From the IMG/VR virus record IMGVR_UViG_3300041662_000011, positions 1 through 24,338 of that record: a stretch of DNA of 24,338 nucleotides; one strand, 5' to 3'. This DNA is from a virus. Shown here piece by piece: positions 1-11,553 of this stretch. The notes under the pieces are model-generated. The model had not been told where the DNA came from. It made no database searches and saw nothing but the letters and a program-made list of their open reading frames with translations. The stretch's first letter is position 1. Each line of letters begins with the position of its first letter. The position numbers and the translations under genes were made by a program.

Positions 1-211
1 GCCAGTCGATTCTCTGTGCGTAAACGTAAGCTTGTTGGATTAGCTTCATTGCAACTGTAAACTCGGTAATGGTTGCGGACGTAAAGCGACGACCTTTTAC
101 ATCACCATACTCGTTCTTATCGGCTGAGTTGTTGTATAGGATCAGATCCTCGATCTGCTCTGCAATCATCTGAACTTTGTATTGAGCATACTCAAAGTGT
201 CCGCCGCTCAT
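1..211 (-). CDS. Hypothetical phage protein, N-terminal part (cut by the window edge)
   Basis: The reading frame opens at ATG 211 and runs without a stop off the left edge, giving about 70 residues. The protein begins MSGGHFEYAQYKVQ and continues as a charged, soluble, probably helical chain. That opening resembles small conserved phage proteins of unknown function. Its start overlaps the stop of the upstream gene as ATGA (211-208), so it is probably translationally coupled to it in the leftward operon. No catalytic motif is visible. Confidence 0.75.
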   Translation of the reverse strand, partial: MSGGHFEYAQYKVQMIAEQIEDLILYNNSADKNEYGDVKGRRFTSATITEFTVAMKLIQQAYVYAQRIDW

Positions 212-435
212 GTGTTCTTCTCCTTTAATTTGGCTTCGACAATTGCCGCAACATCCACAAACGAAAAGTCATCGACGATGGATGGCACACGAGGACGCAT
301 TGAGTCGTAGTCTTCCGGTGTTAGCCCAACCCAAGCCACGGACATCGCCGCTGCCCGAGCTGTCTTTTCGTCCATTGCTTCATTCCATCCGGTTTGATAG
401 CCCTCTGCATAGCCCACACAATATTCTTCGTTCAT
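208..435 (-). CDS. Hypothetical 75-residue protein
   Basis: A soluble, acidic protein of 75 residues starting MNEEYCVGYAEGYQTGW. The repeated G-Y/G-W pattern at the N-terminus (residues 8-17) is typical of small phage helical proteins, but I do not recognise a named family. Both ends overlap the neighbouring genes by 4 bases (ATGA at 435-432 and at 211-208). This is strong evidence that it is a real, coupled member of the operon downstream of the primase-helicase. No membrane segment or metal motif is visible. Confidence 0.7.
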   Translation of the reverse strand: MNEEYCVGYAEGYQTGWNEAMDEKTARAAAMSVAWVGLTPEDYDSMRPRVPSIVDDFSFVDVAAIVEAKLKEKNT

Positions 436-620
436 AAACTGCGCTCCTTCAACGATACAGGCTCATCCTCTGGCTGCTCAAGCTGTGCTTTTAGTGCGTC
501 TATAGCTTCCTTTACTTCATACGACCCACCCAGCCGCCAAACAGCAACTCCGCCGTAATGGCCAAACAATCCTCGCAGCGCATCCAGCGCTTGCTGCATT
601 ATTTCTTTGTCAGTCATCAT
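432..620 (-). CDS. Hypothetical 62-residue protein
   Basis: The protein starts MMTDKEIMQQALDALRGLFG and is largely amphipathic helix. This N-terminus (TDKEIMQQALDAL) is common in small phage and prophage proteins of unknown function. The start overlaps the stop of the primase-helicase as ATGA (620-617), and its own stop overlaps the next gene in the same way, so translation is probably coupled. The first or second Met could be the start. No function is assigned. Confidence 0.7.
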   Translation of the reverse strand: MMTDKEIMQQALDALRGLFGHYGGVAVWRLGGSYEVKEAIDALKAQLEQPEDEPVSLKERSL

Positions 621-2194
621 AGCCCCGTTTCATCAATAAGAGAACATTCATTTAAATACCCCGTCTGTCTATCATAATGTAGGCCAAACTTCTCACCTGT
701 GGCGCTACCTGCAAACCTGTCTTTCAACACGCGGAAGGTGGTGGTTTGCCTCTTCACAGGATCAGCAGCTTGCTTGTCTCGCTCTAAACCAAACATGTAA
801 TGAGACCAACGAGCAATAGCCCGACTACCAGTAAAATGTTTCTCAAGAACCCTTCCCCCCTCTTCGTGAGCCTTACCCTCAGGCGTTGTGAGATGACTAA
901 CAAAATGAATAATGAGGCCGTCAGATTGAGCGAGGCTAGCCATATCTGCCATGATTCCATCGAGTGCTCTCCTTTCATCTTGTTCGTTGGCCGCTAATGC
1001 CGTTAGGTGGTCTAAATAAATCATCTTAATGTCATAAGCCTTAGCAAAGTAGCGAATAATTCCCTTCACTGCTGCCCAATCCATCGCTCCAAAGTGCTCC
1101 ATCATATACAACTGGTTGCGCTTGTCAAGCCTTTCAACACTGTTTTCGTATTGTTCACGCGTCCACCCTGCATCAGGAATGTGATAGAGCTTCTTGTCCA
1201 GCTTACCGGCAACCCGCTGCGCAGTTTCTACGACATTCTGTTCTAAGTAAATCACCCCCACCTTCTCTCCCAACACATCAATGTCATAGCTAATCTGTTG
1301 CGTAAATACATCAGTTTTACCTACACCAACGCCTGCACCAAAGCCATAAATCTCCCCCTTACGCCGTCCATATGTGAGGCGTGTAAGCGTTGGGAAGCAC
1401 CACGGAAGACCAGCCATTGGAGGCGTTAGCATCCGCTCCTTGATGTCACTAACTGTCACAATGTTCTCGGGCTTGAACTCCTCCGCCTTCCACCAAACGC
1501 TTACAAACTCCTTATCCTTGCCGGCTGCTAGGTAATCACAGGCATCCTTGAAGCCTGCCAAGTGCTTAACAACCTTGCTCTTTCCCCCAAACAACTCAGC
1601 AACTTCTTTAGCTGCTTTCATGCCTGGCTCGTCTGCATCAAAGCAGATTACAACTGAGTCGAAGCTGTCTAGCCACTCAAAGGCTGCTTTACAGTCCTTC
1701 AGAGCCGCCTGTGCCCCGTTTCTAACGCTCACCGTAGGGTAGAGGCTACCCTGCATTTGGAACGCTGCTAGAGCGTCCAGTTCACCCTCGCAAATGGTGA
1801 CAGCCTTTCCCCCAGAACTGAATAGGGATTGTCCGAATAACTGAGCGCTTTTAAAGTTTCCCCGGATAGAGAAAGATTTATCCGCAACACTTCTGACCTT
1901 TGCAGCAACAACAGTTCCGCTTGCGTCAGTGTAAGGGTAATGGTGGCTGAATTCATCTTGTCTAACCTCATATTTGGCGCATGTTGAGCGGGTAATTCCT
2001 CGGTCTGGGATGCTCTTGATCTCCCCTACTGTTTCCATAGGTGCTTTCATTAATTGTTGCCTTACTGGGGCTTCGTTGCCATCCCCTGCCGTAGTGTTGC
2101 AGACAAAGCAATGGGTGTGCCCGTCGTCATACAAGGCGCAGCCGTCGCTGCTGCTACATGCAGAGCACTCAACATGCTTTAAAAACTTGCTCAT
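617..2194 (-). CDS. Bifunctional DNA primase-helicase (T7 gp4-like)
   Basis: This 525-residue replication protein should synthesise primers and unwind DNA at the fork as a ring. The N-terminus carries a Cys4 zinc-binding primase domain (C10, C13, C29, C32). A TOPRIM domain follows, with CEGELDA (135-141) and the acidic motif FDADEPG (185-191). The C-terminal RecA/DnaB-like helicase domain has Walker A GAGVGVGKT (286-294), Walker B IYLDH (392-396) and an HFVSHL motif (430-435). Length and domain order match T7 gp4 (566 residues in T7, from memory). The start is supported by an AGGGAAA Shine-Dalgarno-like sequence just upstream. It lies late in the leftward operon, after many small early genes. 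No polymerase gene is in the window; one may lie further left. Confidence 0.95.
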   Translation of the reverse strand: MSKFLKHVECSACSSSDGCALYDDGHTHCFVCNTTAGDGNEAPVRQQLMKAPMETVGEIKSIPDRGITRSTCAKYEVRQDEFSHHYPYTDASGTVVAAKVRSVADKSFSIRGNFKSAQLFGQSLFSSGGKAVTICEGELDALAAFQMQGSLYPTVSVRNGAQAALKDCKAAFEWLDSFDSVVICFDADEPGMKAAKEVAELFGGKSKVVKHLAGFKDACDYLAAGKDKEFVSVWWKAEEFKPENIVTVSDIKERMLTPPMAGLPWCFPTLTRLTYGRRKGEIYGFGAGVGVGKTDVFTQQISYDIDVLGEKVGVIYLEQNVVETAQRVAGKLDKKLYHIPDAGWTREQYENSVERLDKRNQLYMMEHFGAMDWAAVKGIIRYFAKAYDIKMIYLDHLTALAANEQDERRALDGIMADMASLAQSDGLIIHFVSHLTTPEGKAHEEGGRVLEKHFTGSRAIARWSHYMFGLERDKQAADPVKRQTTTFRVLKDRFAGSATGEKFGLHYDRQTGYLNECSLIDETGL

Positions 2195-2203
2195 CTTGTT
2201 TCC

Positions 2204-2293
2204 CTAAAATAATGCGTCTTCTCTTACCGGTATTGGTTTTGGCGGAATGATGATAGCACCGTTTTCATCCCTTTTAGGAAAAGGCCACGACAA
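2204..2293 (-). CDS. Possible 29-residue protein with TTG start
   Basis: Immediately after the TAA of the 58-residue gene upstream, the same frame continues from a TTG codon for 29 residues to a TAG. A GAGGAG Shine-Dalgarno-like sequence lies about 6 bases before the TTG. The peptide is protein-like: it has a Pro-rich stretch IIIPPKPIPV and ends REDALF. It fills the gap between the upstream gene and the primase. It could be a separate short gene started at TTG, a readthrough extension of the preceding gene, or a remnant. Confidence 0.45.
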   Translation of the reverse strand: MSWPFPKRDENGAIIIPPKPIPVREDALF

Positions 2294-2470
2294 TTAGGGC
2301 TCCTCTTGAAAGTCTGGGTGTAAAGTCTTTGCCTCAGCGATGCCAGCTTCTATGGCTTTCATAATACCAAAGCGCAATAACGCATCCTTCATATCATCTG
2401 AGAGGTCAAAAGAATAAACAGCACTACCGTCGGCGTTCTCTTTAAGCAAAGACACATTAATAACAGTCAT
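2294..2470 (-). CDS. Hypothetical 58-residue protein
   Basis: Starts MTVINVSLLKENADGSAVYSF and ends HPDFQEEP. It looks like a compact beta-strand pair followed by a helix (DDMKDALLRFGIMKAIEAG). This pattern is familiar from small phage proteins of unknown function. A GGGGGA Shine-Dalgarno-like sequence lies 5 bases before the ATG. The start overlaps the stop of the 19-residue ORF upstream as ATGA. It is shorter than typical gene-finder cut-offs, but spacing, ribosome site and composition support it. Confidence 0.7.
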   Translation of the reverse strand: MTVINVSLLKENADGSAVYSFDLSDDMKDALLRFGIMKAIEAGIAEAKTLHPDFQEEP

Positions 2471-2526
2471 AAATCCCCCATTAAGTTAATAACAAAAACT
2501 GTAATCGTAATTAAGACAATAATCAT
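2467..2526 (-). CDS. Possible 19-residue hydrophobic peptide
   Basis: A micro-ORF encoding an almost entirely aliphatic peptide (MIIVLITITVFVINLMGDL), long enough for one membrane-spanning helix. Its ATG overlaps the stop of the 57-residue gene upstream and its TGA overlaps the start of the 58-residue gene downstream. Both overlaps are ATGA. This double coupling is what supports it; it may equally act only to carry ribosomes across the gap. Confidence 0.4.
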   Translation of the reverse strand: MIIVLITITVFVINLMGDL

Positions 2527-2696
2527 TTAATTCCTTTCTCTTCCATCCTATTTGTAATTGTTTTTAATACAGCATACAACCCTTGGGTTTCCACCAAGGC
2601 AACGACATCATTAATAACCTGCCATTCATGAAACTCTTGTTCCATTAAGTCCCAGTCGGGGCTATTGTCTTCGGGTATATAAAAATCATTGGCCAT
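2523..2696 (-). CDS. Hypothetical 57-residue protein
   Basis: Starts MANDFYIPEDNSPDWDLMEQEF, giving an acidic N-terminal half followed by a likely helix (VINDVVALVETQGLYAVLKTI) and a charged tail. A purine-rich AAAGAAAG stretch precedes the ATG. It is in the same orientation as its neighbours and ends in an ATGA overlap with the next micro-ORF. No recognisable domain; the function is unknown. Confidence 0.65.
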   Translation of the reverse strand: MANDFYIPEDNSPDWDLMEQEFHEWQVINDVVALVETQGLYAVLKTITNRMEEKGIK

Positions 2697-2757
2697 TGGT
2701 TTCTTTCTTTAAAGGACTGTAGTACTAAAGGTTGTATTAATTGTTGGTTGTCTATAA

Positions 2758-2775
2758 CTTCTAAGAACTTAGAAG
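2758..2775. repeat. Inverted repeat CTTCTAAG-AA-CTTAGAAG
   Basis: A perfect 8-bp inverted repeat separated by 2 bases sits just past the stop of the zinc-ribbon gene (2780-3004). As RNA it could form a 7-bp stem with a 4-base loop. No strong U-tract follows on the minus strand, so it is more likely an mRNA processing or stabilising hairpin than an efficient terminator. The CTTAGAAG word also occurs at 5973-5980, 6356-6363 and 6411-6418. Confidence 0.4.
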
Positions 2776-2779
2776 AACT

Positions 2780-3004
2780 TCATAGTTCTTTAAAGGTAGG
2801 GTAGCAGAAGTTGTCAGTGTTGTCAACATCTTCTTCAATAACCCCACCGTTCATAAGGTCTTTACGGTCAATAGTAGGTAAATCAACACTCATAGTCACC
2901 GAATAATGGCATTTATTGCATAAATCGAGGAATTCTCGGGTTGTTGCGTGCCTCCGTGTACTCTCGAAGTCGTTCAAGGGTTTGTCGCAGCATAGGCATT
3001 TCAT
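2780..3004 (-). CDS. Small zinc-ribbon-like phage protein
   Basis: A 74-residue protein with two CxxC knuckles, C3-x2-C6 and C29-x2-C32, separated by a short charged linker. This is the arrangement of a small zinc ribbon. The start MKCLCCDKPLNDFESTRRH resembles a group of small podovirus proteins of unknown role. Zinc binding is inferred from the Cys spacing; any DNA, RNA or protein target is unknown. The region just upstream lacks a clear Shine-Dalgarno sequence, so expression may depend on upstream translation. Confidence 0.75.
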   Translation of the reverse strand: MKCLCCDKPLNDFESTRRHATTREFLDLCNKCHYSVTMSVDLPTIDRKDLMNGGVIEEDVDNTDNFCYPTFKEL

Positions 3005-3061
3005 AGGAGGATCTCAGTTAGGTTAGAAGGGGTGAAGGCTACTCAGCCACCACCATGGTTT

Positions 3062-3376
3062 TTAAACAGCGCCTAAGGGCTTCTGAGGCTCTTTAAACGT
3101 ACATGCCTTCAGATTTCCAGTGTCGCCGTCAAAAACAAGTACACAATTACATTCCAACGGGCTTGCAGCATAGACCAACGGGCCAGCGTAAGGACTATTG
3201 ACCAGCAACACTTCACGCACCACGTCGGGCTTGGGTATGGGTTTAATCCTATATTCTGCACTATCAAACCAACTAGGAGACGATAGGGTGTACCAAATTT
3301 GCTTATCACTTAGATAAACCTCAATAGTTTCACCGTTGGCCCATGCCATGATTATGTCGTAGTGTTTGTTTTTCAT
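3062..3376 (-). CDS. Hypothetical 104-residue protein
   Basis: The N-terminal half has the pattern HYDIIMAWANGETIEVY...W.TLSSPSWFDSAEYRIKP. This is seen in a widespread small phage protein family: a helix with the AWANG motif, an aromatic-rich strand region and a YRIKP end. The rest (residues 50-104) is likely beta-structure. The ATG overlaps the stop of the preceding gene as ATGA (3376-3373). The function is unknown. Confidence 0.75.
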   Translation of the reverse strand: MKNKHYDIIMAWANGETIEVYLSDKQIWYTLSSPSWFDSAEYRIKPIPKPDVVREVLLVNSPYAGPLVYAASPLECNCVLVFDGDTGNLKACTFKEPQKPLGAV

Positions 3377-3627
3377 TTAATATCTTTTTCTACAATAATA
3401 TATTTAATAATGCGATTGTTATATATCTGCTGTTTAAAACAAATAAACCCAGCGCCATCCGTGGATACATGCGCAGACCAGCTTTTGCTTGGCCTGCAAA
3501 GCCCTTCAATTCTTGCAGCCCGTAGATCGTCCTCTATGCCTTTGGCTGTATAACCAAGGGCTAGACCAAGGCCAAGGGCTGTAAAGCCTGCCAATGGCCA
3601 TAGAAGCCCCTTAGACGCGCCATACAT
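3373..3627 (-). CDS. Small membrane protein, about 84 residues
   Basis: The frame is open from a TTG at 3684, but that start would overlap the upstream gene by 74 bases. The ATG at 3627 gives a more normal 17-base overlap and is preferred. From there the protein starts MYGASKG, then has one hydrophobic span (LLWPLAGFTALGLGLALGY, about residues 8-26). A charged segment with two Cys (residues 42 and 62) and a Lys/Ile-rich tail follow. It is probably a single-pass inner-membrane protein; the role is unknown. The weak ribosome site leaves the exact start uncertain. Confidence 0.6.
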   Translation of the reverse strand: MYGASKGLLWPLAGFTALGLGLALGYTAKGIEDDLRAARIEGLCRPSKSWSAHVSTDGAGFICFKQQIYNNRIIKYIIVEKDIK

Positions 3628-3829
3628 TGTATTCCCAATCCAATAGCAGGCTCTTTTCAATTTCCTGCACCACTCGCGGATCAATCACTAGCATGAGGTC
3701 TGGTCCTTTATCTATTTTTATTGTACATAGGGAGAATATCGGGGAATATCCATAATCTTCCTCTATTATATACATACCATTGAAAGGTATTTTATCAACA
3801 ACTTCGTAGAATATATGTTTTTTAGTCAT
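3611..3829 (-). CDS. Hypothetical 72-residue protein
   Basis: Starts MTKKHIFYEVVDKIPFNGMYIIEEDYGYSP and looks like a small alpha/beta protein with strands around residues 5-25 and 28-50. AAGGGC lies 6 bases before the ATG as a ribosome site. Its 3' end overlaps the following membrane-protein gene. No known motif. Adjacent genes on this arm share its AT-rich composition. Confidence 0.6.
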   Translation of the reverse strand: MTKKHIFYEVVDKIPFNGMYIIEEDYGYSPIFSLCTIKIDKGPDLMLVIDPRVVQEIEKSLLLDWEYNVWRV

Positions 3830-3832
3830 AAC

Positions 3833-4063
3833 TTAGCCCTTAATTACCCCTTGATTAGTGTTGATAATATCGTGATAATGTCCATCCTTATCAAACAACT
3901 GTACAAGGTTGTTATCATTAAACGAACGGAATTTTGCAGGTAGTTTCATATATAATTCAAAATCACGCATTAGTTTTGGTAAAGTACGAGCGCTCAGGAG
4001 TATGCTTTGATGCTTACCGTGTAAATCGTTGTTATGCCAGATAATTATTGAGTAATTATTCAT
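3833..4063 (-). CDS. Hypothetical 76-residue protein
   Basis: Starts MNNYSIIIWHNNDLHGKHQSI and is preceded by AAAGGA in a good ribosome-binding position; the stop of the upstream 45-residue gene lies inside that leader. The protein appears mixed alpha/beta, with a central helix (LPKLMRDFELYMKL). No named family recognised. It is one of a run of closely spaced leftward early genes. Confidence 0.6.
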   Translation of the reverse strand: MNNYSIIIWHNNDLHGKHQSILLSARTLPKLMRDFELYMKLPAKFRSFNDNNLVQLFDKDGHYHDIINTNQGVIKG

Positions 4064-4064
4064 A

Positions 4065-4202
4065 TTATCCTTTAATTAGTTTATAAATCGCTGCATACTC
4101 ATTAAGTAATTGATTATTGTCTGCGATCCAATCCAGGGCATATTGACGATCGTTAAAGGTGACAGCGACAATGCCTGATGATATGTGAACTACTTTATAC
4201 AT
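4065..4202 (-). CDS. Hypothetical 45-residue protein
   Basis: A short ORF (MYKVVHISSGIVAVTFNDRQ...) with an AAGG ribosome site 7 bases upstream. Its stop lies one base before the next gene's start. The sequence suggests a beta-hairpin followed by a helix (YALDWIADNNQLLNEYAAIYKL), a fold plausible for a small phage protein. Codon use and spacing fit the operon. No function can be assigned. Confidence 0.6.
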   Translation of the reverse strand: MYKVVHISSGIVAVTFNDRQYALDWIADNNQLLNEYAAIYKLIKG

Positions 4203-4217
4203 GGTTTTACCTTATAG

Positions 4218-4343
4218 TTAAGACAAATAAACAAGCAAACCAAAGGCAATGGCCACACCTAAGGCTAGAACAAGTATCCAGTCAAACAGCTTTTCGTAAA
4301 TAGACGGCTTGGTGGTGATGATGTAGGGCTTCAATGGCTTCAT
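4218..4343 (-). CDS. Small single-pass membrane protein, 41 residues
   Basis: Starts MKPLKPYIITTKPSIYEKLF, then has one strongly hydrophobic segment (about residues 22-40, DWILVLALGVAIAFGLLVYL). It ends immediately after the span. The basic N-terminus suggests the N-in orientation. It is a plausible small early inner-membrane protein. Size and context support a gene, but no family is recognised and the ribosome site (GAAAGAAT) is only moderate. Confidence 0.55.
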   Translation of the reverse strand: MKPLKPYIITTKPSIYEKLFDWILVLALGVAIAFGLLVYLS

Positions 4344-4351
4344 GGATTCTT

Positions 4352-4579
4352 TCAGTTCAAAAGGGCTTTACAAATGGCGTCAGCTTCGGCGCCATCAATG
4401 GAAGTTTCTAGCGCTTCCACGTAATCAGCAAATTGTGCGTGAGTTATAGGTAATAGTTTTCCCTTCCCCGCCTCTGCTGCTGATTGAACCACAAGCCCGG
4501 GTTTAGCAAGGCATGCACTGTAGCGGCTTGAGTTGTGGAGTAAGCGCGAAGCTGTGACAGTCAATTCTGATGTTTTCAT
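4352..4579 (-). CDS. Hypothetical 75-residue protein
   Basis: The frame is open further upstream, but the ATG at 4579 is chosen because GGAGG, a near-perfect Shine-Dalgarno, lies 7 bases before it. The longer version begins with an Arg-rich stretch read from the gene upstream. The protein (MKTSELTVTASRLLHNS...) is mostly helical. It has a segment HAQFADYVEALETSIDGAEADAI near the C-terminus. No known domain. Confidence 0.65.
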   Translation of the reverse strand: MKTSELTVTASRLLHNSSRYSACLAKPGLVVQSAAEAGKGKLLPITHAQFADYVEALETSIDGAEADAICKALLN

Positions 4580-4590
4580 AATAGACCTCC

Positions 4591-4911
4591 TTAAAATTGT
4601 AAATAGACAAAGCCGCTTGGTGTTTCGCCGACCACGATTGTGTAGTTGTGTAAGTACTCCCGCACGGCGTCGACTTCGTCGCATCCTTCGTCAATCTCAA
4701 TTGAATAGTAGTCGATGACTTCACCCGTGCTGCTCTCTGCGTAGTCGCAGCAAATAGAAACGACGTCCAGTTCTATCTCTTCGCCGGTGTCTTCTTCGAT
4801 CTGCTCAAAGTGCTCCAAAAGTAGCCCAAGCGCCGGGCGGCTGAATTGATTGGCGCGACCAGCACAGGTGAAGGCGTCAATGAATGCTGATTGTGTGATT
4901 GTGGTTTTCAT
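4591..4911 (-). CDS. Hypothetical acidic protein, 106 residues
   Basis: Starts MKTTITQSAFIDAFTCAGRANQFS and continues as a very acidic protein (EQIEEDTGEEIELDVVSICCDYAESS). It appears mixed alpha/beta with a VYLQF end. Proteins of this look occur in phages and plasmids as conserved unknowns. A small acidic early protein that mimics DNA or blocks a host factor is a possible role, but only an inference. It has its own promoter (4942-4969). Confidence 0.7.
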   Translation of the reverse strand: MKTTITQSAFIDAFTCAGRANQFSRPALGLLLEHFEQIEEDTGEEIELDVVSICCDYAESSTGEVIDYYSIEIDEGCDEVDAVREYLHNYTIVVGETPSGFVYLQF

Positions 4912-4941
4912 GACTTGCTTTCAGTGGTTGGTGATGCGTGT

Positions 4942-4969
4942 AGTTTACGCGGGTTGTTCGGGCTGTCAA
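4942..4969 (-). promoter_or_regulatory. Leftward sigma-70-like promoter (C)
   Basis: On the minus strand, TTGACA (4969-4964), a 16-base spacer and TAAACT (4947-4942) lie about 31 bases upstream of the ATG at 4911. The -35 box is perfect and the -10 box matches 4 of 6. The arrangement repeats that of the two promoters at 5262-5289 and 5537-5564, which supports all three. Confidence 0.65.
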
Positions 4970-4979
4970 TGATTATTTT

Positions 4980-4996
4980 CTAGGGGTTTTCCCTAG
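4980..4996. repeat. CTAGGG-GTTTT-CCCTAG inverted repeat upstream of promoter C
   Basis: A perfect 6-bp inverted repeat around a 5-base centre, about 10 bases upstream of the -35 box of promoter C. Its core AGGGGTTTTCCCT (4982-4994) recurs exactly at 5577-5589, about 12 bases upstream of promoter A. Same core, same placement and same orientation suggest a protein-binding site or upstream promoter element. Confidence 0.5.
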
Positions 4997-5019
4997 GATT
5001 GTGAAACTGCTGGTCCCGC

Positions 5020-5232
5020 TTAATTTTGGAACCATTCACGAAGCCAGCTTCGCGCTTTCTGGAGTGACTTCGTGTTAAAGCGTGTCACTTCTTCGCCGTG
5101 TTCGTCTGTTACCCTATAGATCCACTCACTTGTGAACGTCAATTTGTATTGATGGCCGTGCAACTTCAGCGTGCCATCCTTAGCCTGAGCTGCAAGCGCT
5201 ACGGCTTGACGTTCTAGGGTTCCGTAATTCAT
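5020..5232 (-). CDS. Hypothetical 70-residue protein
   Basis: The frame opens at 5289, but that would include the promoter. The ATG at 5232 follows AAAGGACAACCC, a ribosome site shared with the next gene upstream, and is preferred. The protein (MNYGTLERQAVALAAQAKDG...) starts with a helix. Strand-rich sequence follows (YKLTFTSEWIYRVTDEHGEEVTRF), and then a basic/aromatic helix ending WLREWFQN. It has its own promoter. Function unknown. Confidence 0.65.
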   Translation of the reverse strand: MNYGTLERQAVALAAQAKDGTLKLHGHQYKLTFTSEWIYRVTDEHGEEVTRFNTKSLQKARSWLREWFQN

Positions 5233-5261
5233 TGGGTTGTCCTTTGGTTGTTGATGGTTCA

Positions 5262-5289
5262 AGTATAGGGCATTAGTGACGCCCGTCAA
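5262..5289 (-). promoter_or_regulatory. Leftward sigma-70-like promoter (B)
   Basis: Minus strand: TTGACG (5289-5284), a 16-base spacer ending GCCC, and TATACT (5267-5262), about 30 bases before the ATG at 5232. Both boxes match 5 of 6. The region after the -10 box, including a CAACAACCAAAGG ribosome-site leader, is nearly the same as downstream of promoter A, so the two leaders look duplicated. Confidence 0.75.
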
Positions 5290-5292
5290 GCT

Positions 5293-5508
5293 CTATCTTT
5301 TCGCTATTATCTTAACAGATGCAAAGTTAGGGGCTTCGCCAGTGTATCGGGCGACACGAAATGAGTGAAACCCTTGAGCGCTTGCAGCTGCTTTCACGCG
5401 GTTGATGTTCTCAATGGCTAAGCGGTTGTCGGGAAAGCATGCGAGTAAGTCCTCTTGGTATGATTCGTTAGATTCCTTAGCTAAGCCATAAATTAGGATG
5501 TCGTTCAT
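5293..5508 (-). CDS. Hypothetical 71-residue protein, first gene of the leftward arm
   Basis: Starts MNDILIYGLAKESNESYQEDLL. The central helix (NRLAIENINRVKAAASAQGF) and flanking strands (HSFRVARYTG, SVKIIAKR) suggest a compact alpha/beta fold. It lies directly downstream of the best of the three leftward promoters (TATAAT box), so it is probably among the first genes expressed after infection. Its leader, CAACAACCAAAGGCAACC, resembles that of the next gene. Function unknown. Confidence 0.7.
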   Translation of the reverse strand: MNDILIYGLAKESNESYQEDLLACFPDNRLAIENINRVKAAASAQGFHSFRVARYTGEAPNFASVKIIAKR

Positions 5509-5536
5509 TTGGTTGCCTTTGGTTGTTGATGATTCA

Positions 5537-5564
5537 ATTATAGGGCTGCAATGTCTGTCGTCAA
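5537..5564 (-). promoter_or_regulatory. Leftward sigma-70-like promoter (A)
   Basis: Minus strand: TTGACG (5564-5559), a 16-base spacer ending GCCC, and a perfect TATAAT (5542-5537), about 29 bases upstream of the ATG at 5508. This is the closest to consensus of the three leftward promoters and probably begins the leftward transcript. Confidence 0.8.
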
Positions 5565-5576
5565 GAACTATTTCAT

Positions 5577-5589
5577 AGGGGTTTTCCCT
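5577..5589. repeat. Second copy of the AGGGGTTTTCCCT element
   Basis: An exact 13-base copy of the core at 4982-4994, here upstream of promoter A. The flanks (TATTTCAT before, TTGTG after) also resemble those at 4974-5003, and both copies have GAAAC about 10 bases further on. Probably a regulatory site duplicated with its promoter. Confidence 0.5.
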
Positions 5590-5680
5590 TGTGTCTTGGA
5601 AACAACACGCAGGGCTTGCTAGTCCCTCTGAAGACTATATAGGGCCCCACGTCACCTCACCCCTTGCTCCAAAGCACTAA

Positions 5681-5694
5681 TGACCAGCTGGTCA
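5681..5694. promoter_or_regulatory. Perfect 14-bp palindrome TGACCAGCTGGTCA
   Basis: Each half is the exact reverse complement of the other with no spacer. This is the shape of an operator bound by a dimeric regulator. It lies about 120 bases upstream of leftward promoter A, so it is not a direct promoter-blocking site for that promoter. Which protein would bind is unknown; no repressor gene is recognised in the window. Confidence 0.4.
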
Positions 5695-5710
5695 GTAACT
5701 CGACAGGCTA

Positions 5711-6038
5711 CAAAGCCCCTACTACTAACATGGTTATTATTACCAATCAGTCACAATCTGGGCACTGAGCCTACGGAGTGACTGGGTAGTTGCTTATAAG
5801 CTGATGCACCATTGTAGTGCATAGACAATCCCTATCAATGGCGATCTAGTGATAGCCTAAGACTATGAAGCTCTGGTCTGCTGCTTCATTGATGGGGGGG
5901 AGGGGGCTTGCTGGTTTGTAAACATTGTAGGAGCCTCTAAAGCTCACAAAAAGGAAATAATGGAAAAAGGGGCTTAGAAGGAAGGCTTCAAAGCCCCTAT
6001 AAAGCAATTAAATAGGGACAGATCAAAGCCTCTAAAGC
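5711..6038 (+). repeat. Dispersed CAAAGCCYCTA direct repeats (iteron-like)
   Basis: The 11-base word CAAAGCCYCTA occurs at 5711-5721, 5989-5999 (both with C) and 6024-6034 (with T). An overlapping 12-base word AGCCTCTAAAGC is present exactly at 5932-5943 and 6027-6038. All are in the same orientation inside the non-coding region. Spacing is irregular, so classical iterons are not proven. Confidence 0.35.
5748..5889. repeat. Cluster of four inverted repeats (stem-loops)
   Basis: CAGTCAC/GTGACTG (5748-5754 with 5778-5784), ATGCAC/GTGCAT (5804-5809 with 5817-5822), CTATCA/TGATAG (5832-5837 with 5850-5855) and ATGAAGC/GCTTCAT (5865-5871 with 5883-5889) follow one another. All are perfect 6-7 bp stems. 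Four in 140 bases suggests selected structure, as in an origin or a structured RNA. The region's strand of action cannot be decided from this. Confidence 0.45.
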
Positions 6039-6050
6039 ACGTGTAAGCTG

Positions 6051-6079
6051 TTGATATTGTTAAATATAGTAGTAATTAA
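6051..6079 (+). promoter_or_regulatory. Weak, possibly decayed copy of the rightward promoter
   Basis: TTGATA (6051-6056) lies exactly 35 bases before ATAGACATAAAAG (6086-6098). This is the same geometry as TTGACA relative to the identical 13-base word in the strong promoter module at 6226-6278. The -10 position (6074-6079, AATTAA) is poor, so activity is doubtful; it may be a degenerate duplicate. Confidence 0.3.
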
Positions 6080-6225
6080 CTAACAATAGACATAAAAGCT
6101 ATAAAGGAATCTGCGCTAACGTAGTTCCCTTTAAAGAACTTCTAAGCAAAGACACCCTTTAATGTGTAAAGAAGTGTAAAGATTAGGGCTTTATTGATGT
6201 TTATTGCTGTTTTAGTAAATAAAGC

Positions 6226-6254
6226 TTGACATAACAGGATCAATAGTGTAGAAT
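6226..6254 (+). promoter_or_regulatory. Strong rightward sigma-70 promoter
   Basis: TTGACA (6226-6231), a 17-base spacer and TAGAAT (6249-6254; 5 of 6 to consensus). Transcription would start near 6261 and read rightward into the packaging and structural genes. It needs only host RNA polymerase. No promoter of the T7-type repeated 20-base kind was noticed in the window. Confidence 0.8.
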
Positions 6255-6260
6255 ATCTCT

Positions 6261-6278
6261 ATAGACATAAAAGTCTAT
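6261..6278 (+). promoter_or_regulatory. Hairpin at the start of the rightward transcript
   Basis: ATAGAC-ATAAAA-GTCTAT is a perfect 6-bp inverted repeat that begins at the predicted first transcribed base. It could stabilise the 5' end of the mRNA or be an operator overlapping the start site. The first 13 bases recur at 6086-6098. Confidence 0.5.
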
Positions 6279-6321
6279 CAGTAACTCAAATGAACTGTGA
6301 TGCAGGGCCCATCATAGCAAC

Positions 6322-6350
6322 TTGACAGAATCTGGACATGAGCCTATGAC
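6322..6350 (+). promoter_or_regulatory. Possible second rightward promoter
   Basis: TTGACA (6322-6327), a 17-base spacer and TATGAC (6345-6350; 4 of 6). It lies about 135 bases upstream of the small terminase start. The perfect -35 box and spacing make it plausible, but the -10 box is weak and the region is also part of a diverged repeat shared with 5693-5773. Confidence 0.35.
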
Positions 6351-6409
6351 ATCTTCTTAGAAGTGTTTAGTTCATTTAGATTACTGTCTTAATATGTAAT
6401 TAATAGGGA

Positions 6410-6427
6410 AACTTAGAAGACTAAGTT
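6410..6427 (+). repeat. Inverted repeat in the small-terminase leader
   Basis: AACTTAG-AAGA-CTAAGTT forms a perfect 7-bp stem with a 4-base loop about 57 bases before the chosen start codon (6485). It could be an RNA processing or stabilising hairpin in the 5' leader. It shares the CTTAGAAG word with sites at 2768, 5973 and 6356. Confidence 0.4.
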
Positions 6428-6484
6428 CTCCAGAGTCTTTAAAGCCTTTAAGGGGCTCCTATGTCTCCTGAAAGGATAAAGACA

Positions 6485-6874
6485 ATGACAACCAAACAAC
6501 AAGACAAAGAGGCTAAGCAGCCTTTGGTACGCAAGGGGCGTCCTCCAAAGGCTGTCCTAGCTGCTAAGAAGCCAGGAGGCCGTGTAGCCCTTGGTAGACC
6601 CCCCGGAGAGGCTTCAAGGATCCAGGAGTTTAAAGCAAGGCTGTTGGGAACAACAGGAGAGAAGATCATTGCTACGCTCATCCGTAAAGCTATGGATGAT
6701 GAAGACAAGGATCAGTTTGCTGCTCTGAAGTTCTGTGCTGAACGGATTCTTCCTATGAGTGCCTTTGATGCTGCTAAGAACAGCAACAGCACCCCCACCG
6801 TAACCATAAACATAACAGCCTTGTCTGACACCAAACAGGTGTATAACAAGGATGAAGGAGTGATTGATGTTTAA
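6485..6874 (+). CDS. Terminase small subunit (probable)
   Basis: A 129-residue protein encoded just upstream of the large terminase, as expected for the DNA-recognition subunit of the packaging motor. The N-terminal 45 residues are very basic, with two GRPP words (18-21 and 37-40) that recall AT-hook cores. A helical middle follows (RIQEFKARLL...EKIIATLIRKAMDDEDKDQFAALKFCAERILPMS), then a beta-type tail (TVTINITAL). ATG 6485 is preferred over the in-frame ATG 6461 because AAAGGATAAAGACA precedes it, nearly the same ribosome site as at 11022. Assignment rests on position and general form, not on a diagnostic motif. Confidence 0.75.
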   Translation: MTTKQQDKEAKQPLVRKGRPPKAVLAAKKPGGRVALGRPPGEASRIQEFKARLLGTTGEKIIATLIRKAMDDEDKDQFAALKFCAERILPMSAFDAAKNSNSTPTVTINITALSDTKQVYNKDEGVIDV

Positions 6875-7103
6875 ACAACTACTAGTTATTGTCTCTCTTA
6901 GCTTTCCCTTGATTGCTTCAGGGGAGTTTGTTATTGCTACTTCTGTTGAAGAGGCACAGAAACAAGCAGAAGTTAAATGTGTACAAGGCTGCTTGGTGTT
7001 GTCTCCTGCTGAGATGGAAGCCCTCAATATTGTCATCAATAAAACCATACAAGATGCTTATCAGTCAGGGCTTCGAGGCTGGAGCAAGGCTGTTAGTAAA
7101 TGA
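6867..7103 (+). CDS. Small secreted or periplasmic protein between the terminase genes
   Basis: A 78-residue protein with a clear signal peptide: MFKQ, a hydrophobic core LLVIVSLSFPLIASG, and likely cleavage near residue 19-20. The mature part has a CVQGC pair that could form a disulphide, then a helix. The ribosome site GAAGGAG lies about 8 bases before the ATG. It overlaps the end of the small terminase by 8 bases, and its own TGA overlaps the large terminase start (ATGA). A lysis or envelope role is possible, but nothing in the sequence proves one. Confidence 0.75.
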   Translation: MFKQLLVIVSLSFPLIASGEFVIATSVEEAQKQAEVKCVQGCLVLSPAEMEALNIVINKTIQDAYQSGLRGWSKAVSK

Positions 7104-8359
7104 CCCAGCTAAACTTTGAGCTTCTGCGGTGGCAAAAGGAAGTGTTTAATTCTCCTTCACGATTTAAGATTGTAGCCGCTGGGCGGCGCTGTGGTAAAAG
7201 CAGGCTTTCAGCTATCACCCTTCTGATTGAGGGGCTTAACTGCCCTGAAGGGGCGGCAGTGATGTACATTGCTCCCACCCTTGGACAAGCCCGTGCAATT
7301 ATCTGGGACTTGATTCATGATCTAGGAAGGCAGGTTATTAAGAGCAGCCACATCAACAATCTGGAGATCACCCTTATTAATGGTCGTAAGATTATGGTGA
7401 GAGGTGCTGACAATCCGGACAGCTTGCGAGGTATGTCTCTCACCTACGTGGTGCTGGATGAAGTTGCATTTATCAAACAGGACATTTGGGAAAAGGTTAT
7501 CCGGGCTTCGTTGTCTGACCGCAAGGGACGAGCTCTATTTATTTCAACCCCTTCTGGGCGCAACTGGTTCTATGATATCTACAAGCTAGGTATGGAAGAG
7601 ACGGACGAGGAATGGCGTAGCTGGCACTTCACGACTAAGGACAATGAAACCATTGACCCTAAGGAGATTGAAGCTGCTGAGCGAACCCTGAGCAGCTTTG
7701 CTTTTAAGCAGGAATATCTGTCTTCCTTTGATAACGCCGGAAGCGATGTGTTTAAAGAAGCGTGGTTTAAGACAGCGCCAGAGCCTAAGAGTGGTAGTTA
7801 TGTCGTTGCCATTGACTTGGCAGGTTTTGAAGATGTTGCTAAGAATGCAGGGGCTGCAAAGAAGCGCTTAGACGAAACAGCCATTGCCATTGTAAAAGTT
7901 GCAGACAACGGAAACTGGTGGGTTAAGCGCATCGACCATGGGCGCTGGGACATCATGAAGACCGCTGTGAGCATCCTAAAGGCCATTAGAGAGGTGCAGC
8001 CCATTGCCACAGGCATTGAGCAAGGAGCGCTTCGCTTGGCTGTCTTGCCATATGTCTCTGATCTAATGCGAAAGAACAATGTCTACACCCACATTAGCGA
8101 ACTAAGTCACGGCAATAAGAGAAAAATTGATCGGGTTGTCTGGAGCCTCCAAGGACTCTTGGAGCACGGGAGAATCTCCTTCAACGAGGATGAAGATTGG
8201 AAAGAGTTTAAAGACCAGCTAATCATGTTCCCTACAGCAGGGGTGCATGATGACTTGGTGGATGCCTTGTCCTACGTTTCTCAACTAACAACTAGCACTT
8301 ATCAGCAAGAATACGAGGATGACGAATACGACGTTCTCGATGTAACCATAGGATTTTAA
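7100..8359 (+). CDS. Terminase large subunit (ATPase and nuclease)
   Basis: The DNA-packaging motor, 419 residues. Walker A is AGRRCGKS (27-34), with the Arg-rich form typical of terminases. Walker B with the catalytic Glu is VVLDEVAF (D120, E121). A conserved STPSGRNWF segment (coupling motif region) follows. The C-terminal RNase H-like nuclease has acidic motifs VVAIDLAG (D239) and GIEQGA, and ends with HDDLVDAL (383-390). The start overlaps the preceding gene as ATGA. All key residues are present, so it should be active. Confidence 0.97.
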   Translation: MTQLNFELLRWQKEVFNSPSRFKIVAAGRRCGKSRLSAITLLIEGLNCPEGAAVMYIAPTLGQARAIIWDLIHDLGRQVIKSSHINNLEITLINGRKIMVRGADNPDSLRGMSLTYVVLDEVAFIKQDIWEKVIRASLSDRKGRALFISTPSGRNWFYDIYKLGMEETDEEWRSWHFTTKDNETIDPKEIEAAERTLSSFAFKQEYLSSFDNAGSDVFKEAWFKTAPEPKSGSYVVAIDLAGFEDVAKNAGAAKKRLDETAIAIVKVADNGNWWVKRIDHGRWDIMKTAVSILKAIREVQPIATGIEQGALRLAVLPYVSDLMRKNNVYTHISELSHGNKRKIDRVVWSLQGLLEHGRISFNEDEDWKEFKDQLIMFPTAGVHDDLVDALSYVSQLTTSTYQQEYEDDEYDVLDVTIGF

Positions 8360-8360
8360 C

Positions 8361-8624
8361 ATGGCTACCAAGAATCCAAAACTTGAAAAAGCAGGCGTAA
8401 CGGGTTTCAATGCCCCTAAACGAACTCCTTCTCACCCAACTAAAAGCCACGTTGTTGTTGCCAAGGAAGGCGACGAGGTTAAAACAATTAGGTTTGGACA
8501 GCAGGGGGTAAGTGGTAGTCCTGATGGTTCTGCCCGCAATGAAGCCTTTAAGTCCCGTCATGCCAAGAACATAGCCAAAGGCAAAATGTCAGCTGCTTAC
8601 TGGGCTAACAAAGTTAAATGGTAA
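8361..8624 (+). CDS. Conserved small phage protein, 87 residues
   Basis: Starts MATKNPKLEKAGVTGFNAPKRTP and ends with MSAAYWANKVKW. The middle contains VKTIRFGQQGVSGS and a basic RHAKNIAKGK segment. I recognise this as a widespread short, basic phage protein family of unknown function that is common next to terminase or portal genes. The high Lys/Arg content suggests nucleic-acid contact or a minor head component, which is an inference. It starts one base after the terminase stop. Confidence 0.85.
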   Translation: MATKNPKLEKAGVTGFNAPKRTPSHPTKSHVVVAKEGDEVKTIRFGQQGVSGSPDGSARNEAFKSRHAKNIAKGKMSAAYWANKVKW

Positions 8625-8640
8625 TACAAGGAGTTTTGAA

Positions 8641-8790
8641 ATGAACAAGCCCGGCCTATACGCAAACATTAACGCCAAACAGAAACGCATTGCTGGTGGT
8701 TCTGGTGAAAAGATGAACAAGGTTGGCTCCAAAGCTGCCCCTTCTAAAGCCGACTTCGTTAAGTCTGCAAAAACCGCTAAAAGGAAATAA
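8641..8790 (+). CDS. Conserved short basic phage protein, 49 residues
   Basis: Starts MNKPGLYANINAKQKRIAGGSGEKM and ends in a Lys/Ala-rich tail (KSAKTAKRK). The NKPGLYANI-KRIAGGSGEKM pattern recurs in many phage genomes near packaging genes; its role is unknown. A GGAG ribosome site precedes the ATG. The stop overlaps the next start (TAATG). Confidence 0.8.
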   Translation: MNKPGLYANINAKQKRIAGGSGEKMNKVGSKAAPSKADFVKSAKTAKRK

Positions 8791-8933
8791 TGGCTAAAGG
8801 AAAACCCCACTACCTGCCCAACGGTAAGCTACACACAGGGGCCACCCACAAAGAAGCGGGTGTGCTGATGACAGGTGAAAAGCACACAGCGGCCAGTAAA
8901 ACATTGTCCCACACACCACCAAAGAAGAAATAA
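8790..8933 (+). CDS. Short basic phage protein, 47 residues
   Basis: Starts MAKGKPHYLPNGKLHTGATHKEAG and ends HTPPKKK. The words HYLPNGKLHTG and HTAASKTLSH are characteristic of small conserved phage proteins next to the previous one. It is rich in His, Lys and Gly, with no hydrophobic core, so it may be unstructured alone. AAAGGAAATA before the ATG is the ribosome site. It lies 3 bases before the portal gene. Confidence 0.75.
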   Translation: MAKGKPHYLPNGKLHTGATHKEAGVLMTGEKHTAASKTLSHTPPKKK

Positions 8934-8936
8934 CAC

Positions 8937-10964
8937 ATGGCTAAAGAAACACGAGAAGACTTCGAAGAAAGCACATCAGAAGAGAAAGATCTAGTCTCTT
9001 GGGTTGTTGATCACACAGAACGGTGGCGTGACTATCGAGACAGTAACTTCATGGAGCTTTGGGAGGAGTACGAGCGCATCTTCCGTGGTCAATGGGCCTC
9101 TGAAGACAAAACCCGTGACAGTGAACGAAGCCGCATCATTAGCCCAGCAACGCAGCAGGCTGTGGAAACACGCCACGCTGAAATCATTGAAGCCATCTTT
9201 GGTCAAGGAGAGTTCTTTGACATTCAGGATGACCTAAAGGACGTAGACGGCAACCCAATGGACGTTGAAGCCATTAAAGCCATGCTGATGGAAGACTTCA
9301 AGCGGGACAAGATTAAGAAGAGCATTGATCACATTGAGTTGATGGCTGAAATCTACGGCACCGGCATCGGTGAAGTTATTATTGGCACTAGCACTGAGTA
9401 CAAACCAGCAACTCAGACAATGCCTGGTTCACAGGGTGTCGCAGCTATTGGTGTGCAAGAAAGCGAACGCTTCTTTGTAAAGATTAAACCAATCAACCCA
9501 AAGAACTTCCTTATTGACCCCAACGCCGACAGCATTGAAGAGGCCATGGGCTGCGCTGTAGAGAAGTATGTCTCCATCCACCGTGTTGTGGCTAATATGG
9601 AGAAGGGTGTTTACATGAAGCGTAACATCGTCATTTCTCCTACAGACGAGACGCTAGAAGCCACCCAAGAGCTTCGTAACTACGACGACGACAAGGTTAA
9701 GCTACTAACCTATTACGGCCTTATCCCCCGTGAATATCTCAATGCTTTGAACGATGAAGAATCAGAAAGCGAAATTAATCTGTTTCCTGAAGACAGTTTG
9801 GCAGACGACTACAGCGACATGGTTGAGGCCATCATTGTAATTGCCAATGAGAACATCTTGTTGAAGGCTGAAGAAAGCCCATACATGATGAAAGACCGTC
9901 CTATTGTTGCCTACCAAGACGACACGGTTCCAGGCCGCTTCTATGGCCGTGGAACGGTTGAGAAGGCGTACAACATGCAGAAGGCCATTGACGGCCAGCT
10001 ACGTGCTCATATGGACTCTCTAGCCCTTACAACAGCCCCTATGATTGCTATGGATGCAACTCGTATCCCTCGCGGTGGTAAGTTTGAGGTTAAGCCAGGT
10101 AAGGCCATCCTGACCAACGGCCCACCTTCAGAGGTGATCTTTCCGTTCCATTTCGGTCAATCCAACGTGGATGCCCCAGCAGCGGCTCAGAACTTTGAGC
10201 GGATGTTGTTACAGGCAACGGGCACAGTTGACTCAGCAGGGCTTCCTTCGGCTACGCAGCGCGACGCCAGTGGACAGGGTATGTCTATGGCTATGGCAGG
10301 CATCATTAAGAAGTATAAACGCACCCTTGTGAACTTCCAAGAAGATTTCATGATCCCGTTTATCAATAAAGCTGCCTACCGCTACATGCAGTTTGACCCA
10401 GAGCGCTATCCATCCGTGGATATGACCTTCTTGCCTACAGCAACCCTGGGAATCTTGGCTCGTGAGTTTGAACAACAGCAAATGATTGGGTTGCTACAAA
10501 CCCTTGGCCCCAACACACCTGTATTGCCTATCATTTTGAAGGGTATTTTGTCTAATAGCAGCTTGAGTAATCGTGCTGAGTTGATGGTTGCTCTTGAGAA
10601 GATGAGCCAACCAGACCCAGAAGCAGAACAGCAAAAGCAGCAAGCTGAACAAATGGCTCAGCAGGCTCAAATGGCTCTTATTCAGGCTCAGGTGCAGGAC
10701 TTGCAAGCAGCGGCACAGAAGAAAGCTGCTGAATCGCAGCAAATTCAGGTTGAAACTCAATTGGCTCCTCAGTTGGCACAGGCAAAGCTCACAGCGGCGC
10801 TTGCTACCAACCTAGATGATGACAACGAGAGCAAAGACTTTGAACGACGTGCCCGGATGACAGAACTTATGCTTAAAGAGCGTGACCTCAACATCAAAGA
10901 AGATGACAACGTGCGTAATGAGCGTATTACAGCCATGCAAATGCAGAAAACAACCAATAGTTGA
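8937..10964 (+). CDS. Portal (head-tail connector) protein
   Basis: A 675-residue protein that should form the ring through which DNA enters the head. The acidic N-terminus is followed by SRIISPATQQAVETRHAEIIEAIFG, a signature of portal proteins in podoviruses with long portals. The central body includes DDTVPGRFYGRGTVEKAYNMQKAIDGQLRAH, the clip/stem region typical of the family. Residues about 560-630 are Gln/Ala-rich coiled coil. This points to a P22-like long portal with a C-terminal barrel-like extension rather than the shorter T7 connector. The gene follows the terminase cluster, and the next promoter's -35 box overlaps its stop. Confidence 0.92.
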   Translation: MAKETREDFEESTSEEKDLVSWVVDHTERWRDYRDSNFMELWEEYERIFRGQWASEDKTRDSERSRIISPATQQAVETRHAEIIEAIFGQGEFFDIQDDLKDVDGNPMDVEAIKAMLMEDFKRDKIKKSIDHIELMAEIYGTGIGEVIIGTSTEYKPATQTMPGSQGVAAIGVQESERFFVKIKPINPKNFLIDPNADSIEEAMGCAVEKYVSIHRVVANMEKGVYMKRNIVISPTDETLEATQELRNYDDDKVKLLTYYGLIPREYLNALNDEESESEINLFPEDSLADDYSDMVEAIIVIANENILLKAEESPYMMKDRPIVAYQDDTVPGRFYGRGTVEKAYNMQKAIDGQLRAHMDSLALTTAPMIAMDATRIPRGGKFEVKPGKAILTNGPPSEVIFPFHFGQSNVDAPAAAQNFERMLLQATGTVDSAGLPSATQRDASGQGMSMAMAGIIKKYKRTLVNFQEDFMIPFINKAAYRYMQFDPERYPSVDMTFLPTATLGILAREFEQQQMIGLLQTLGPNTPVLPIILKGILSNSSLSNRAELMVALEKMSQPDPEAEQQKQQAEQMAQQAQMALIQAQVQDLQAAAQKKAAESQQIQVETQLAPQLAQAKLTAALATNLDDDNESKDFERRARMTELMLKERDLNIKEDDNVRNERITAMQMQKTTNS

Positions 10965-10989
10965 CAAAACGTTGTAAATATGCTACAAT
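10961..10989 (+). promoter_or_regulatory. Rightward sigma-70 promoter for scaffold and capsid genes
   Basis: TTGACA (10961-10966), a 17-base spacer and TACAAT (10984-10989; 5 of 6). The -35 box overlaps the portal stop codon. The next gene starts at 11022, about 26 bases after the predicted transcription start. It would give extra transcription of the scaffold and major capsid genes. Confidence 0.8.
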
Positions 10990-11021
10990 GGTTGCATTAA
11001 AACAACAGAAGGATAAAGCCA

Positions 11022-11261
11022 ATGGCTCCTGATTTACAGCACTTTTATGATGAAACATTCTCCATGATGGCAACCAAAGGTTGGGCCATGATGATGGAGG
11101 ATTTCACAAAGATTAAAAACACGGTTAATGAATTGTCAACAGTCCAAGATGCACACTCCTTATTCCATCGACAAGGACAACTAGACATTCTTAACCTGCT
11201 TTTATCCCGCAAAGAAGCCTGCGAAACAGCATATGAGAGCTTACAAGAGGCTTCAGAATGA
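11022..11261 (+). CDS. Hypothetical 79-residue protein
   Basis: Starts MAPDLQHFYDETFSMMATKGW and is likely all helical with a HRQGQLDILNLLLSRKEACETAYESL segment. Proteins of this kind occur between portal and scaffold genes in related podoviruses, but their role is not known. The ribosome site AAGGATAAAGCCA closely matches that of the small terminase. Its stop overlaps the next start (ATGA). Confidence 0.75.
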   Translation: MAPDLQHFYDETFSMMATKGWAMMMEDFTKIKNTVNELSTVQDAHSLFHRQGQLDILNLLLSRKEACETAYESLQEASE

Positions 11262-11494: not shown

Positions 11495-11553
11495 CCTTTT
11501 GGAGTTCATTTTTAAATATCCTAAAACCCTCACGGGCAGGATGAAAGGACGGT

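Follow-up and report, generated by a model that had tools for sequence, protein, structure and literature searches.

Two predicted leftward phage promoters with an upstream dyad belong to a swappable promoter type common among uncultured, probably freshwater, phages

Introduction

In sigma70 promoters, UP elements and class I activator sites are located 5' of the -35 box, and the proximal UP subsite is an A-rich tract next to that box. Downstream of the start site, mRNA decay can be slowed by a 5'-terminal hairpin, as in the ompA type. The closest known kind to the phage promoters analysed here is the PeSL (promoter early stem-loop) cassette of T4-like phages, which was reportedly described by Arbiol et al. 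in 2010 and by Comeau et al. in 2014. PeSLs combine a host-type early promoter with a stem-loop, are dense in regions of gene shuffling and are credited with mediating that shuffling (PMC4503421). A second point of comparison is Pseudomonas phage LUZ100 of the Autographiviridae, which has host-specific sigma70 early promoters P1-P3, mapped by ONT-cappable-seq (PMC10134795).

Here we analyse three leftward promoters, A, B and C, in the 24,338-bp viral record IMGVR_UViG_3300041662_000011, hereafter the window, by which we mean the whole stretch of DNA that was analysed. Two of them, A and C, carry a conserved dyad directly upstream of the core promoter and belong to a common swappable promoter type of uncultured, probably freshwater, phages.

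Results

The window encodes a T7-like primase/helicase (phrog_239) and small ORFs leftward, and terminase, portal, head and tail-type genes rightward, the portal or adaptor belonging to phrog_1216/332. A direct DNA search with the whole window against named phages found no similar phage, and the promoter region alone gave two matches to named phages, both with an E-value of 0.2. The nearest relatives in IMG/VR are 99-100% identical in TerL and 97-99% identical in the primase, and some of these records are ~37 kb long. A search with PF00940, the profile of the T7-type RNA polymerase, gave no match in the window or in 18 relatives (19 records in all, which may be incomplete); all three named Autographiviridae taken as a positive control were matched. 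The single-subunit RNA polymerase gene that serves as the criterion for Autographiviridae was thus not found in the window and its 18 relatives. This result disfavours a T7-type polymerase promoter system for the window's phage group and suggests that transcription probably relies on the host polymerase. The genes for the scaffold-like protein and the major head protein are separated by an HNH endonuclease-like gene (12521-13312), which probably encodes a free-standing homing endonuclease.

The search of bacterial genomes for a related gene returned a single match, a 6.6-kb contig of a Bacteroidetes MAG (L127, JAFMBH010000210.1) that encodes a 93% identical end of the primase/helicase of the window phage. 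We rejected Bacteroidetes as the host suggested by this related gene: the contig is phage-like, and it is judged a binning error because the promoter boxes are presumably not of the Bacteroidetes type. The genome to which the contig was assigned has no match to the pattern of the upstream element described below.

An earlier sequence-only reading had proposed three leftward promoters here with a common 16-base spacer, each ~30 bases before a small gene. Direct reading and a consensus scan recover all three on the minus strand, and the spacer is 16 bases long in each. Promoter A is TTGACG-16-TATAAT (5537-5564, with the -35 box at 5564-5559 and the -10 box at 5542-5537), promoter B is TTGACG-16-TATACT (5262-5289; -35 box 5289-5284, -10 box 5267-5262) and promoter C is TTGACA-16-TAAACT (4942-4969; -35 box 4969-4964, -10 box 4947-4942). 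They match the sigma70 consensus at 11/12, 10/12 and 10/12 positions, respectively, and both hexamers and spacing are of the sigma70 type. The distances from the -10 box to the ATG are 28, 29 and 30 nt for A, B and C, in line with the proposal. Placing the start 7 nt after the -10 box predicts start sites at 5530 (A), 5255 (B) and 4935 (C) on the minus strand. In the 24,338 bp the combined pattern TTGAC[GA]-N16-TA[AT]A[AC]T has three occurrences, each on the minus strand, compared to a mean of 0.035 in second-order Markov sequences, of which 0 in 1000 contain three or more; the test is after the fact because the pattern was derived from the three sites themselves. The same boxes at other spacers from 13 to 21 do not occur in the window, and a generic sigma70 scan of bases 1-12000 shows no enrichment (21 found versus 16.9 +/- 3.9 expected). 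Promoters A and B are 79% alike over 56 nt. The sequence-only reading had also noted a GCCC before the -10 box and a leader common to these two, and both observations hold: among the three promoters GCCC is present in A and B only, and CAACAACCAAAGG is found without mismatch at 5516-5528 and 5241-5253 and nowhere else. Upstream of promoter A, ~850 bp (5593-6460) contain no convincing gene and have repeated AGGCTnCAAAGCCCCTA words; a further leftward TTGATA-16-TACAAT is seen at 5838-5811 and a rightward TTGACA-17-TAGAAT at 6226-6254.

The three downstream genes, all on the minus strand, are small and mutually dissimilar. Gene A (5293-5508) encodes 71 residues and belongs to a small family in 8 other phage loci with 41-66% identity. 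Gene B (5020-5232) encodes a basic protein of 70 residues (pI 9.2) with one relative at 89% identity, in locus L253 on the same contig as L058. Gene C (4591-4911) encodes a protein of 106 residues that is strongly acidic (pI 4.1, charge -18.3) and matches phrog_9974 weakly (E 2.9e-6). None of the three products matches any described function, and phrog_9974 is itself without known function. AlphaFold models, with a mean pLDDT of 70.0 for gene A and a poor 49.6 for gene C, are too weak for function, and by charge alone the product of gene C is a candidate DNA mimic. When the proteins are compared with each other there is no meaningful similarity (best E 0.56 over 15 residues), and the flanks upstream of the promoters match at only 7 to 14 of 35 positions. 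Whole-gene duplication was therefore rejected as the origin of A, B and C.

Directly 5' of the -35 box in both A and C lies a 25-nt element, AGGG-N5-CCCTA-nn-AAATA, that the sequence-only reading missed. The promoter and leader of its proposed cassette both stand; what it left out is this upstream dyad element of A and C, and C is without the exact leader shared by A and B. The element of A, AGGGAAAACCCCTATGAAATAGTTC, occupies 5565-5589 on the minus strand and consists of the dyad AGGG-N5-CCCT followed by AAATA. That of C, AGGGAAAACCCCTAGAAAATAATCA, occupies 4970-4994 on the minus strand and is identical at 25/25 positions in the related locus L058. Both have the form AGGG-AAAAC-CCCTA-nn-AAATA-nnnn and are the same at 20 of 25 positions. 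Their PWM scores are 41.6 (A) and 47.2 (C), compared to a maximum of 11.1 in 40 Markov-1 sequences. In most relatives the dyad is TAGGG-N5-C/ACCTA, and relatives with primases down to ~63% identity have the element before comparable promoters. The arms are constant and the centre varies among relatives (AAAAC, TTTGT, TAAAC). The arm centres are ~10 bp apart, or one helical turn, and with transcription taken to begin at the A located 7 nt past the -10 box, the dyad is centred near -53. A role as terminator is disfavoured, as no T-run follows the dyad on the coding strand. As single-stranded DNA the dyad can fold, with z-scores of -3.25 for C and -0.86 for A. Twice the dyad occurs without AAATA, once at a promoter (L154) and once with no obvious promoter either (L261).

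In promoter B of the window the element is absent, and only 3 nt separate the gene A stop codon from the -35 box of B; the counterpart of B in L058 has the element. The element is thus not required for a cassette of this set. Since it is common to A and C and absent from B, C groups with A, judged from sequence, by element and spacer and not by the exact leader that the earlier reading had used.

We next consider how widely the element occurs. Searched as a degenerate pattern together with TWGAC, it is found in at least 120 stretches of viral DNA, and the reversed pattern in none; 110 instances are distinct among the matches listed. At up to one mismatch the element is present in 6 of the 19 records comprising the window and its relatives, compared to none for the reversed control in the 25 records searched. 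Records without it are G004, with an 89% identical primase, six records with TerL 75-78% identical, and G001, whose primase and TerL are 99-100% identical to those of the window. The G001 contig seems broken in this region because primase and TerL lie near its two ends.

For a closer description, 133 loci were used: the window, L120, 119 loci from the pattern scan and 12 relatives added to these. They gave 135 instances, located in 120 of the loci. Among 128 distinct 45-mers, three features are conserved though free in the pattern, namely ATTA-like bases before GGG, solely A or C at position -16, and a TTG before the -35 box. The base at -16 follows the centre, with TTTGTC 24 times versus TTTGTA once and TAAACA 29 times versus TAAACC three times. 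A -10 box (at least 5/6 matches), which was not in the search pattern, lies at a spacer of 16 in 68/135 instances versus 1.6 in shuffled sequences; spacers of 17, 18 and 19 account for 6, 8 and 2 of the 135, with ~1.5 per spacing in shuffles, and the remaining instances have a weaker -10 box. This implies that the 16-nt spacer is a trait of the wider set. Only 9/135 sites lie within an ORF of at least 100 residues, compared to 65% of random positions. In 128/135 instances an ATG within 130 nt of the -10 box opens an ORF that has at least 25 residues or runs off the locus, with a median distance of 46 nt and a median ORF length of 67 residues. Both the -10 test and the ORF test are independent of the TWGAC requirement.

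TWGAC starts exactly 25 nt from the start of the element in 103 of 112 distinct element instances, a count that is biased to TWGAC, with which most loci were fetched, and to AAATA, which the search required. When a fixed criterion is applied to the other nine, four of them have a promoter, at distances of 24 nt (L208), 34 nt (L051, L218) and 37 nt (L258), and L137, L146 and L176 show by eye a weak TTGCAC at best. The element shifts of 9 and 12 bp are close to one turn, as would be expected if an activator had to lie on the polymerase side of the helix; these are three cases and prove little.

Two named isolates have the element, one infecting Limnohabitans and one Xylophilus. Limnohabitans phage DC31 contains it exactly (27/27 nt, BLAST E 7e-5) and Xylophilus phage Lumi has an exact match to the short element pattern (BLAST E 5). 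Both phages are from freshwater, and both host genera belong to the Comamonadaceae. Other BLAST matches in named phages, such as XacN1, were set aside at E 0.4 or worse, LUZ100 has no match to the element patterns, and there is no match in the plasmid collection. No recognisable promoter follows the element in DC31 or Lumi, which counts against a purely promoter-bound role. The perfect element of DC31 (L262, 19980-20760) has TTATCCACA-like words and tandem GACTGAACCGTCTAG-like repeats in its vicinity, and this repeat stretch is perhaps a replication origin. In Lumi the element is inside the terminal repeat. The word 'promoter' has 0 occurrences in the main texts of the papers on DC31 and Lumi, and the element, for which the literature searches gave no description, is apparently undescribed.

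Counted from the predicted start sites, leader A (with ATCAACAACCAAAGG, 5509-5530, from A5530) and leader C (ATCACCAACCAC..., 4912-4935, from A4935), both on the minus strand, have no predicted structure and fold at 0.0 kcal/mol. Leader B (with ATCAACAACCAAAGG, 5233-5255, minus strand, from A5255) equals leader A at 14/15 of the first nucleotides after the -10 box. The window thus uses the short form of two leader forms seen in the wider set. Out of the 128/135 instances with an ATG, 122 leaders had sufficient length for folding, 31 short and 91 long. Some of the short leaders are ATCAACAAC-like, 12 have CAACAAC or CAACAAAC, and their mean folding z-score is +0.2 (25 of the 31 tested). The long leaders have a mean z-score of -2.5, with 64% below -2, relative to shuffles that preserved base composition only. 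In 83/91 of them the helix begins within 0-4 nt of where the predicted CA start opens. The 85 distinct long leaders have 44 different outer stems, so the fold is kept and the sequence varies, with the reservation that the stems come from predicted folds and pairing is expected by construction. Leader hairpins in several carriers (e.g. L137, L181, L189, L249) often have an inner GC or AC/GT helix around a loop such as AAWWC, which may be an RNA motif bound by a protein and not just a stabilising structure. In L146, L178, L218 and L247 a TTGGCGC follows the element and promoter; strong inverted repeats are found there in L146, L178 and L218, and AAAGTA words are common to L146, L218 and L247. 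The next ORFs in L146, L178 and L218 are short (26, 66 and 31 residues), which makes a non-coding transcript possible.

Of the earlier reading, the promoter-leader cassette and its duplication or exchange are borne out: cassettes vary in copy number and have moved independently of the genes behind them. The strong early burst of host-takeover-type genes that it also proposed would be a putative consequence. Promoter A precedes three mutually dissimilar ORFs in the window, in L047 (same contig as L003) and in L058, and close relatives have one to three cassette copies. Gene C remains with promoter C in the same three loci, at 72-89% identity. Between the window and L058, promoter C is identical at 25/25 element positions and at 6/6 positions in both the -35 and the -10 box, with 8/16 in the spacer, a distribution that reads as a footprint. 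Promoter A of L058 is A-type in its upstream part (element 24/25 versus A of L047), and from AATGCCC onward it matches promoter B at 27/28 positions and promoter A at 22/28, which looks like the outcome of recombination inside the cassette. The window and L058 copies of B share 15/16 spacer and 15/15 leader positions, and 11/25 in the element region. The element is missing upstream of the gene A homologues in L254, L255, L257 and L259, and those in L256 and L258 have it farther from the -35 box, so genes and promoters have been reshuffled relative to one another. In the latter two loci (L256 at ~4890-5000, L258 at 4891-4990) a TACCCAATGGGTA dyad lies between element and -35 box and recurs in the spacer; it looks like a repressor operator.

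The phage records here are 24-41 kb long, with T7-like or other replication genes. By terminase, the carrier loci, mostly fragments, form two or more clusters (with 44 and 24 of 121 loci), and their replication and recombination genes are of several kinds. No protein family is present in all 121 loci, and the largest reaches 44/121. When loci are grouped through the protein families they share, single linkage puts all 121 in one group, and a requirement for three or more shared families leaves 109 of them together, so the carriers are not truly unrelated. Gene exchange within one phage community, or a shared phage regulator encoded outside the fragments, is therefore possible. The differing terminase and replication genes and the lack of a universal family lean towards a host factor as the protein that reads the element.

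Discussion

We consider it probable that A, B and C are early promoters of the host sigma70 type and that A and C are portable cassettes in which a predicted protein on the dyad boosts initiation. Host sigma70-type RNA polymerase would read all three soon after infection. In A and C the cassette would run from the 25-nt element through the -35 box, 16 nt and the -10 box to the leader, which begins at the predicted start. The dyad would most likely be bound by a dimeric DNA-binding protein, and the bound dyad and the A-rich tract beside the -35 box would together raise initiation once the DNA enters the cell. A host factor is somewhat likelier in this role than a phage factor. The leader would keep the short early mRNA translatable or stable, in many relatives through a 5' hairpin. 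Recombination through the cassette would allow small early genes to be gained, lost or swapped with their control intact.

A more specific version of this proposal is tentative, and we rate it as possible rather than likely. An abundant, as yet undescribed DNA-binding activator in freshwater bacteria akin to the Comamonadaceae would recognise the element, and many phages with different packaging and replication genes would have acquired the element by exchange or by convergence as a booster of the first transcript, coupled to a promoter with a 16-nt spacer and a protective 5' leader.

It is rather unlikely that the element is instead the operator of a phage-encoded repressor or activator, with the cassettes regulated by the phage for early-gene shut-off or superinfection control. 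The site is a dyad of operator size 5' of small early-type genes, the second, different dyad in L256 and L258 (TACCCAATGGGTA) shows that operator-like sites do occur, and shared protein families connect the loci that carry the element. Against this, the largest of those families covers 44/121 loci, packaging and replication genes differ, and a place 5' of the -35 box suits activation more than repression.

We regard as unlikely an intrinsic, UP-like function, in which the alpha subunit of the polymerase would read the DNA with no extra protein. The AAAATAATTG tract beside the -35 box does have the place and the A-rich nature of a proximal UP subsite, and promoter B of the window, without the dyad, still has GAAAAGATAG there by eye. 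A UP element is A/T-rich from about -40 to -60; here the proximal half is A-rich and the distal half is the GC-rich dyad. Against a UP-like function, the outer part of the dyad (AGGG...CCTA) is the most conserved and unlike an A/T-rich distal subsite. In addition, dyad and tract are found together away from the -35 box in L051, L218, L258 and DC31, where AAATA was required by the search in all but DC31, which was found by BLAST. This joint occurrence hints that the A-rich tract is part of the bound site.

A non-transcription site for replication, segregation, packaging or recombination that happens to lie beside early promoters, maybe as a crossover point for gene swapping, is very unlikely. 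Such a site would account for the DC31 element, which has no promoter box and is surrounded by intergenic DNA rich in repeats and TTATCCACA-like words, for the Lumi element in a terminal repeat, and for window B, which lacks just the part 5' of the -35 box. It fits poorly with the TWGAC at 25 nt in 103/112 instances, in a set biased by the TWGAC of the fetching pattern, and with the promoters of four of the other nine. Finally, that A, B and C are three independent ordinary sigma70 promoters, alike through common constraint and without any cassette, is extremely improbable: such boxes converge easily and C is without GCCC and the exact A/B leader, but A and B agree at 79% over 56 nt, A and C share 20/25 element positions, and the element with its -35 box recurs in at least 120 stretches versus 0 for the control.

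If host-read promoters with a protein-bound dyad are the right explanation, the element would allow early transcription to be recognised from sequence in a large set of uncultured phages, and it would provide a marker that links them to hosts and predicted start sites for gene calling. It would also point clearly to a regulator that phages exploit in bacteria common in lakes, and it would extend the idea of a mobile promoter cassette from T4-like to small phages. The window, L047 and L058 would then be a concrete case in which the sequence reveals how small early genes are exchanged while the promoter before them stays the same. In practical terms, the cassette would be a short promoter part in hosts for which genetic tools are scarce. 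The occurrence of a compound early promoter, with its additional upstream site, across many uncultured phages is more interesting than the original observation of three similar promoters.

How do these promoters compare with the known systems? Like a UP element or class I site, the upstream element is positioned 5' of the -35 box, with an A-rich tract abutting it; unlike these, it is a conserved GC-rich dyad of fixed sequence, and we know of no named factor that binds this dyad. LUZ100 resembles the window in having host-polymerase promoters in an early region with short hypothetical genes and a DNA primase/helicase of the same family (47.0% identity), but it encodes a T7-type RNA polymerase, which was not found in the 19 records here. 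The closest likeness is to the PeSL. Both are repeated promoters before small genes, here in one to three copies in close relatives and with the early timing inferred, and both are tied to gene exchange, here through the three unrelated ORFs behind promoter A and the B-like core of L058 A. The differences are that the leaders of the window lack a stem-loop, although 91/122 leaders in the wider set are long and folded, that the window phage is not a T4-like myovirus, with its T7-like primase/helicase and relatives of ~37 kb, and that the cassettes here carry the upstream AGGG-N5-CCTA-nn-AAATA, which to our knowledge is not found in PeSLs. Leaders without a stem-loop in a phage that is not T4-like place the window outside the PeSLs by membership; by analogy, its cassette may nevertheless work like one.
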